A program made the position numbers and the translations under genes. Positions 33,563-33,750 of a stretch of DNA of 64,000 bases are shown here, piece after piece. Source of the DNA: Crocinitomicaceae bacterium. Its GTDB lineage: Bacteria > Bacteroidota > Bacteroidia > Flavobacteriales_D > Crocinitomicaceae. Location of the stretch: assembly GCA_021325675.1 (NCBI GenBank), contig JAJTCM010000002.1, positions 310,001 to 374,000 on the forward strand, in the 5' to 3' direction. Under the pieces are notes generated by a model that saw only the letters and a list, made by a program, of their open reading frames with translations, was not told the origin of the DNA and ran no database searches. Within the stretch, counting starts at the first letter, position 1. Each line of letters begins with the position of its first letter.

Positions 33563-33592
33563 TTGCTAATTTAAAAATGCGTTGTACCTTTG
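33563..33592 (+). promoter_or_regulatory. promoter TTG-N19-TACCTTTG for the 33613 small gene
   Basis: TTG at 33563-33565 and TACCTTTG at 33585-33592 are exact matches to the Flavobacteriia consensus with the ideal 19-bp spacer. Confidence 0.78.
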
Positions 33593-33609
33593 TTTAGAAT
33601 TAGTCTAAA
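33593..33609 (+). promoter_or_regulatory. palindromic operator TTTAGA-N5-TCTAAA over the transcript start
   Basis: TTTAGA (33593-33598) and TCTAAA (33604-33609) are perfect inverted half-sites around ATTAG. The site begins directly after the -7 box and so covers the expected transcription start, the classic position for a repressor. The TTAG/CTAA half-sites resemble operators of DtxR/MntR-family metal-dependent repressors; that assignment is an inference. Confidence 0.65.
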
Positions 33610-33612
33610 TAA

Positions 33613-33750
33613 ATGAAAGCGTTCCCACTTCAAGAGCCCAGGCCTTCCTTTTTCAAAAGTTGTGAAAATTGTTCTTGTGACAAGAAAAAAGAGTGCTGCA
33701 AAAAGTACAAAAAGAAGGGCGTTCATTGTAAAAAATGCCCTAAGCTATAG
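33613..33750 (+). CDS. 45-residue cysteine- and lysine-rich protein, possibly metal-binding
   Basis: A short gene below usual length cut-offs. The product starts MKAFPLQEPRPSFFKSCEN and contains seven Cys in its last 29 residues, patterned C-x2-C-x-C-x5-CC-x9-C-x2-C, with many lysines between. It has no signal peptide or membrane helix, so it should be cytoplasmic. It is supported by an exact promoter (TTG-N19-TACCTTTG), a palindromic operator over the transcript start and an ATG four bases after the operator. The Cys spacing suggests metal or iron-sulfur binding, and the operator suggests metal control. I know of no established family; function is unknown. A DUF1573 gene converges on it 15 bp downstream. 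Confidence 0.7.
   Translation: MKAFPLQEPRPSFFKSCENCSCDKKKECCKKYKKKGVHCKKCPKL

Follow-up and report, generated by a model that had tools for sequence, protein, structure and literature searches.

The window, a stretch of 64,000 nucleotides from a Crocinitomicaceae bacterium (contig JAJTCM010000002.1, positions 310,001 to 374,000), contains a small gene preceded by a putative promoter and a palindrome, with the following features:

33563–33565, plus strand: -33 promoter element TTG, inferred from the Bacteroidota promoter consensus
33585–33592, plus strand: -7 promoter element TACCTTTG, an exact fit to the Bacteroidota consensus TAnnTTTG
33593–33609, no strand: predicted Fur box TTTAGAATTAGTCTAAA (TTTAGA-ATTAG-TCTAAA), over the expected transcription start
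33613–33750, plus strand: 45-codon gene with the product MKAFPLQEPRPSFFKSCENCSCDKKKECCKKYKKKGVHCKKCPKL, conserved in relatives with mostly synonymous changes in the core
Upstream, same strand as the 45-codon gene: murF/alr-like fusion gene, named by inspection
Downstream, convergent: DUF1573-like lipoprotein gene, named by inspection

The palindrome and the frame with seven Cys in 29 residues were found where the original prediction had placed them, and so was the promoter, which had been called exact; this is true of the -7 box but less so at -33, where the element, 19 nt upstream of the -7 box, consists of TTG only. Boxes of the TAnnTTTG type are found immediately 5' of the palindrome in many homologues as well (e.g. 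L006, L009, L014, L025 and L029). The start codon (ATG, 33613–33615) had been set four bases past the palindrome but the real gap is three bases, the TAA at 33610–33612 being the only spacer. The frame ends with TAG (33748–33750) and its 45-aa product contains 7 Cys and 13 Lys (pI 9.5), with the core CC-x9-C-x2-CP at residues 28–43. No other of the 122 ATG frames of 40–80 aa that the window contains reaches seven Cys within 29 residues.

A single-sequence search revealed homologues in 37 of 59 related genomes. With a profile, matches were obtained in 91 of the 395 Bacteroidia genomes sampled, representing 51 of 196 genera and with one copy per matching genome; an earlier, narrower profile had matched 26 of the 395, across the phylum. 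Every aligned relative is a small protein (33–60 aa, 4–8 Cys), and when 45 diverse homologues were aligned C28, C29, G36, C39, C42 and P43 were invariant, the residue three positions after the CC pair was aromatic in 44 and the pI was 9.0–10.1 in all 45. The two Cys pairs are separated by x9 in 34 of them, by x8 in 11 and by x10 in none. Hence, of the seven-Cys spacing that had been proposed as the signature, the conserved part is CC-x8/9-C-x2-CP; the N-terminal C-x2-C-x-C was ruled out as a defining motif, being a clade-specific feature (11/45). Comparing the core codons of two homologues (L005 and L009) showed eight synonymous and no non-synonymous differences, the median dN/dS was ~0.13 (45 unsaturated homologue pairs) and not near 1, and indels among the Bacteroidia homologues preserve the reading frame. 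The 45-codon frame is a real gene under purifying selection, hidden and widespread as predicted, and with homologues found and a low dN/dS the prediction stood on both counts, the N-terminal cysteines excepted.

These data also bear on the possibility that the transcript is a Fur-regulated sRNA in which the frame is incidental. A short solitary unit would suit this explanation, and the search for an Rfam family at the gene, which gave none, leaves room for a novel sRNA, but the dominance of synonymous changes and the frame-keeping indels across Bacteroidia, together with a search for an intrinsic terminator of the gene that found none, make it scarcely credible. No conserved operon partner was found for the homologues; their neighbours are not conserved and therefore no partner is named. 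Clade-local neighbours are the DUF1573-like lipoprotein gene in this genus and flanking gcvP-like and DnaJ genes in a Chryseobacterium-like family.

In searches of family libraries, no Pfam family matched the window protein and among its homologues only scattered single-member matches appeared, while PHROGs gave nothing beyond single weak matches. No match was found with the small protein in a PDB sequence search, with the small gene in the plasmid records searched or with the peptide string in the literature, and a literature search by descriptive terms gave nothing relevant to a Cys-rich mini-protein. The AlphaFold2 model of the 45-aa protein (pLDDT 64, pTM 0.30) contains a short low-confidence helix at residues 26–34 and nothing else, and a PDB fold search with this low-confidence model gave no match and is uninformative; such low confidence would be unsurprising in a peptide that needs a metal to fold. 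When reversed, the core of the protein encoded at 33613–33750 resembles the SEC-C type C-x-C...CC zinc motif and gives weak matches to such families, probably a coincidence of Lys/Cys composition.

Similarity was found to the C-terminal end of FhuF, represented by TIGR03950, TIGR03951 and PF11575. TIGR03950 (NCBIfam) was matched by 37 of the 45 homologues, which are mutually related so that these are not 37 independent tests, with a best E of 5.4e-4 and scores far below the cut-off of the full-length model; TIGR03951 was matched by three of the 45. No homologue matched TIGR03950 when the sequences were reversed (0/45) or when all residues except Cys were shuffled (0/45), and the similarity to the TIGR03950 C-terminus hence exceeds Cys spacing and composition. 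In the window protein the match spans the last 23 positions of the model. In E. coli FhuF, whose C-terminal end is VRRTCCQRYRLPDVQQCGDCTLK, the end RRTCCQRYRLPDVQQCGDCTLK aligns with the small-protein core KKKxCCKKYKKKGxHCGGCPKK, both having a vicinal CC with basic flanks, a Tyr three residues after it and a C-x2-C at the very C-terminus. FhuF binds a [2Fe-2S] cluster via C-C-x10-C-x2-C (PMC8068687). This spacing is found in none of the 45 homologues, where the gap is one to two residues shorter, and further differences from FhuF are the stand-alone size of 33–60 aa, the Pro after the last Cys in 45/45, the high Lys content and a cluster that is only predicted. Pfam FhuF_C (PF11575) gave no match to the ORF at E<=1 in this genome and, by hmmscan, none to the 45 homologues, and the FhuF domain PF06276 is absent from the 45-aa protein as well as from 36/36 relatives. 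Since neither FhuF_C nor a FhuF domain is found and the spacing is shorter, the protein is not filed as a member of FhuF. A split FhuF, considered as a candidate, was ruled out, as no PF06276 domain exists in the 36 relatives. The motif nevertheless suggests that the small protein may work like the C-terminal segment of FhuF, and it strengthens the earlier suggestion of a metal- or Fe-S-binding protein, which is plausible; metal binding as such is likely.

When the palindrome was analysed by pattern searches of the 3.57-Mb genome, TTTAGA-N5-TCTAAA was found four times, where ~0.37 occurrences are expected from the composition of the window, while the reversed pattern, used as control, gave no match. 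The palindrome TTTAGAATTAGTCTAAA is one mismatch from TTTAGAATNATTCTAAA, and a TTTAGAATNATTCTAAA box (<=3 mismatches) is located upstream of the gene in 42 of 53 homologue loci compared to 7 of 926 background windows from the same loci; in 14 further, more distant loci the numbers are 5 and 4 of 224 background windows. In this clade the box lies over the expected start and in others between -33 and -7, positions which suggest repression. For Riemerella anatipestifer the Fur box was established as ATTTAGAATTATTCTAAAT and four promoters were tested by EMSA; the genes that respond to iron in this species include those for TonB, imelysin, Suf, SDH and cytochromes (PMC5609570). By its sequence the palindrome is a predicted Flavobacteriales Fur box, the same as this EMSA-tested box, and a box of 17–19 bp at TonB receptor, imelysin, suf, SDH and cytochrome targets is common to both regulons, whereas a small Cys-rich gene was not found among the R. 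anatipestifer targets in the text available. A later R. anatipestifer paper gives the classical GATAATGATAATCATTATC box (PMC7976709), so that published accounts differ; the distribution of sites observed here fits the former box.

The original prediction had assigned the palindrome to a repressor of the DtxR/MntR type, with the gene induced when manganese (or iron) is scarce. The half-sites fit superficially and this genome harbours one DtxR-family gene, but the identical box is a Fur box in a related member of the order, R. anatipestifer, and the box is not confined to genomes with a DtxR-family regulator: G004, which belongs to the same genus and is 100% complete, has both the gene and boxes, and G020 has a box at a TonB gene, without a match to the DtxR C-domain (PF02742) in either. 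The genes adjoining the box are iron, Fe-S and haem genes and no Mn genes. A DtxR/MntR operator was ruled out as the assignment and this explanation is very improbable. One Fur-family gene is present in this genome (99.5 bits) and a Fur gene in every relative searched (36/36). Iron acting via Fur is thus the likely signal, because the box equals that of R. anatipestifer, G004 lacks a DtxR C-domain gene and Fur is present in every relative searched. The more general part of the prediction, a metal-responsive palindromic operator with derepression on metal scarcity, is supported as probable, and the sequence evidence makes it very likely that the small gene is regulated by Fur.

The letters of the alpha-proteobacterial Irr box (ICE), with the consensus TTTAGAANNNTTCTAAA, are nearly equal to those of the Fur box here, but unlike in Irr systems the regulator would be the single Bacteroidota Fur, a putative Irr relation aside. 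In one relative (L134, G012) the fur gene has a Fur box with two mismatches in its own upstream region; none within 2 mismatches was found at the other fur promoters scanned, a scan in which a few loci were misread.

The genes with the box form an iron, Fe-S and haem regulon. In this genome an exact or near-exact box is found beside a TonB receptor gene and upstream of genes for a DUF4856 lipoprotein, SufB and HemA (the latter three with near-exact sites), and in the relatives beside genes for imelysin, SufA, SufS, Nfu, NqrA and cytochromes. When this genome and the relatives are taken together, the exact box adjoins genes for TonB siderophore receptors, imelysin-type lipoproteins (PF09375), DUF6607, SufA-type, SufS-like and Nfu proteins, NqrA (four genomes), multihaem cytochromes and COX1/COX3-type oxidases and a radical-SAM gene. 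Exact or near-exact boxes also lie 5' of nqrA in four genomes (L090, L107, L110 and L112) and of multihaem cytochrome, 4Fe-4S/NrfD and oxidase genes (L004/L114, L108, L102, L091 and L104), suggesting that in this clade Fur may also control respiratory complexes that are costly in iron.

When analysing the upstream regions of 67 homologues a second palindrome appeared, AATACC-N8-GGTATT (<=1 mismatch), present in 15 of the 67 compared to none of 881 background windows; 58 of the 67 have either the Fur box (<=3 mismatches) or this palindrome (<=2 mismatches). It was seen at L015, L017, L021, L023, L024, L027, L030, L034 and L229, and is absent at the window copy of the gene. This genome (G000) has four exact sites (C1:382879, C4:144308, C4:264021 and C4:283404), three of which are beside Fur boxes, at genes for a TonB receptor, the DUF4856 protein and a LuxR/NarL-type response regulator, and one-mismatch sites in the suf region and 5' of feoB. 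The 16-bp core of the palindrome, TACC...GGTA, shows the layout of NarL-type 7-2-7 sites. The response regulator (L116:2068-3705, on C4), which carries the Cys cluster CEPGSNCDHC and lies directly 5' of a DUF6607-like gene, combines the Fur box with AATACC-N8-GGTATT in its promoter. It is a candidate for a second iron regulator, and that it binds AATACC-N8-GGTATT is a guess.

In the mechanism that we infer, a single-gene transcription unit would encode a 45-aa basic metalloprotein; under iron sufficiency Fur would sit on the transcription start and repress the gene, a predicted iron repression shared with FhuF-type reductases, and under iron scarcity the protein would be made. The four invariant, Lys-set Cys (CC-x8/9-C-x2-CP), with the aromatic residue three after CC, would hold a metal centre. 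This centre would most likely be a FhuF-like [2Fe-2S] cluster, with about an even chance of being right. The free-standing redox mini-domain could then help to reduce and release imported ferric iron, a role that is doubtful, or alternatively provide machinery starved of iron with electrons or a cluster. The proposal as a whole, a Fur-repressed stand-alone metalloprotein with a FhuF-like centre and a role in iron starvation, may as well hold as not.

Two other functions would fit Fur control. The protein could be a metallothionein-like mini-chaperone for Zn, Cu or Fe, or an accessory of cluster transfer, made together with Suf when iron is scarce and having no redox role; 4–8 Cys in 33–60 residues, the same box at suf and nfu genes and extra N-terminal Cys that differ by clade, as in metal-storage peptides, agree with this, but just four Cys are invariant and their FhuF-like layout with an aromatic residue in 44/45 exceeds plain thiol packing, which leaves it rather unlikely. 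Alternatively, a small basic metal-stabilised RNA binder could act as an iron-sparing adaptor, shutting down iron-using proteins under Fur control in the manner of the Fbp proteins. Small basic Fur-regulated proteins of B. subtilis have a role in iron sparing (Gaballa 2008, as cited in PMC5609570), and with this precedent, a solitary gene under predicted Fur control, a Lys-rich core and a pI of 9.0–10.1 in 45/45, the small protein is tiny (33–60 aa), basic and putatively Fur-repressed as the Fbp proteins are. It differs from them in its conserved Cys core and has no known sequence relation to them, and its conserved letters are Cys, Gly and Pro rather than an RNA-binding motif, making this explanation unlikely. 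Fbp proteins are not known for conserved Cys.

Returning to the metalloprotein with a FhuF-like centre, relatives in about a quarter of the sampled Bacteroidia genomes make the family probably an overlooked part of the iron-shortage response of Bacteroidia, a major group in gut, soil, marine and freshwater communities. The gene is a test case for small genes missed by gene callers and domain libraries. The removal of iron from imported chelates is poorly described in Bacteroidia and the 4-Cys mini-protein is a concrete candidate. Tentatively, this Bacteroidia-wide family without a name might consist of stand-alone mini-proteins with [2Fe-2S] (or labile iron), controlled via Fur and in many relatives also via the NarL-like box, which in bacteria lacking FhuF would reductively release iron or report iron status to RNA or enzymes.
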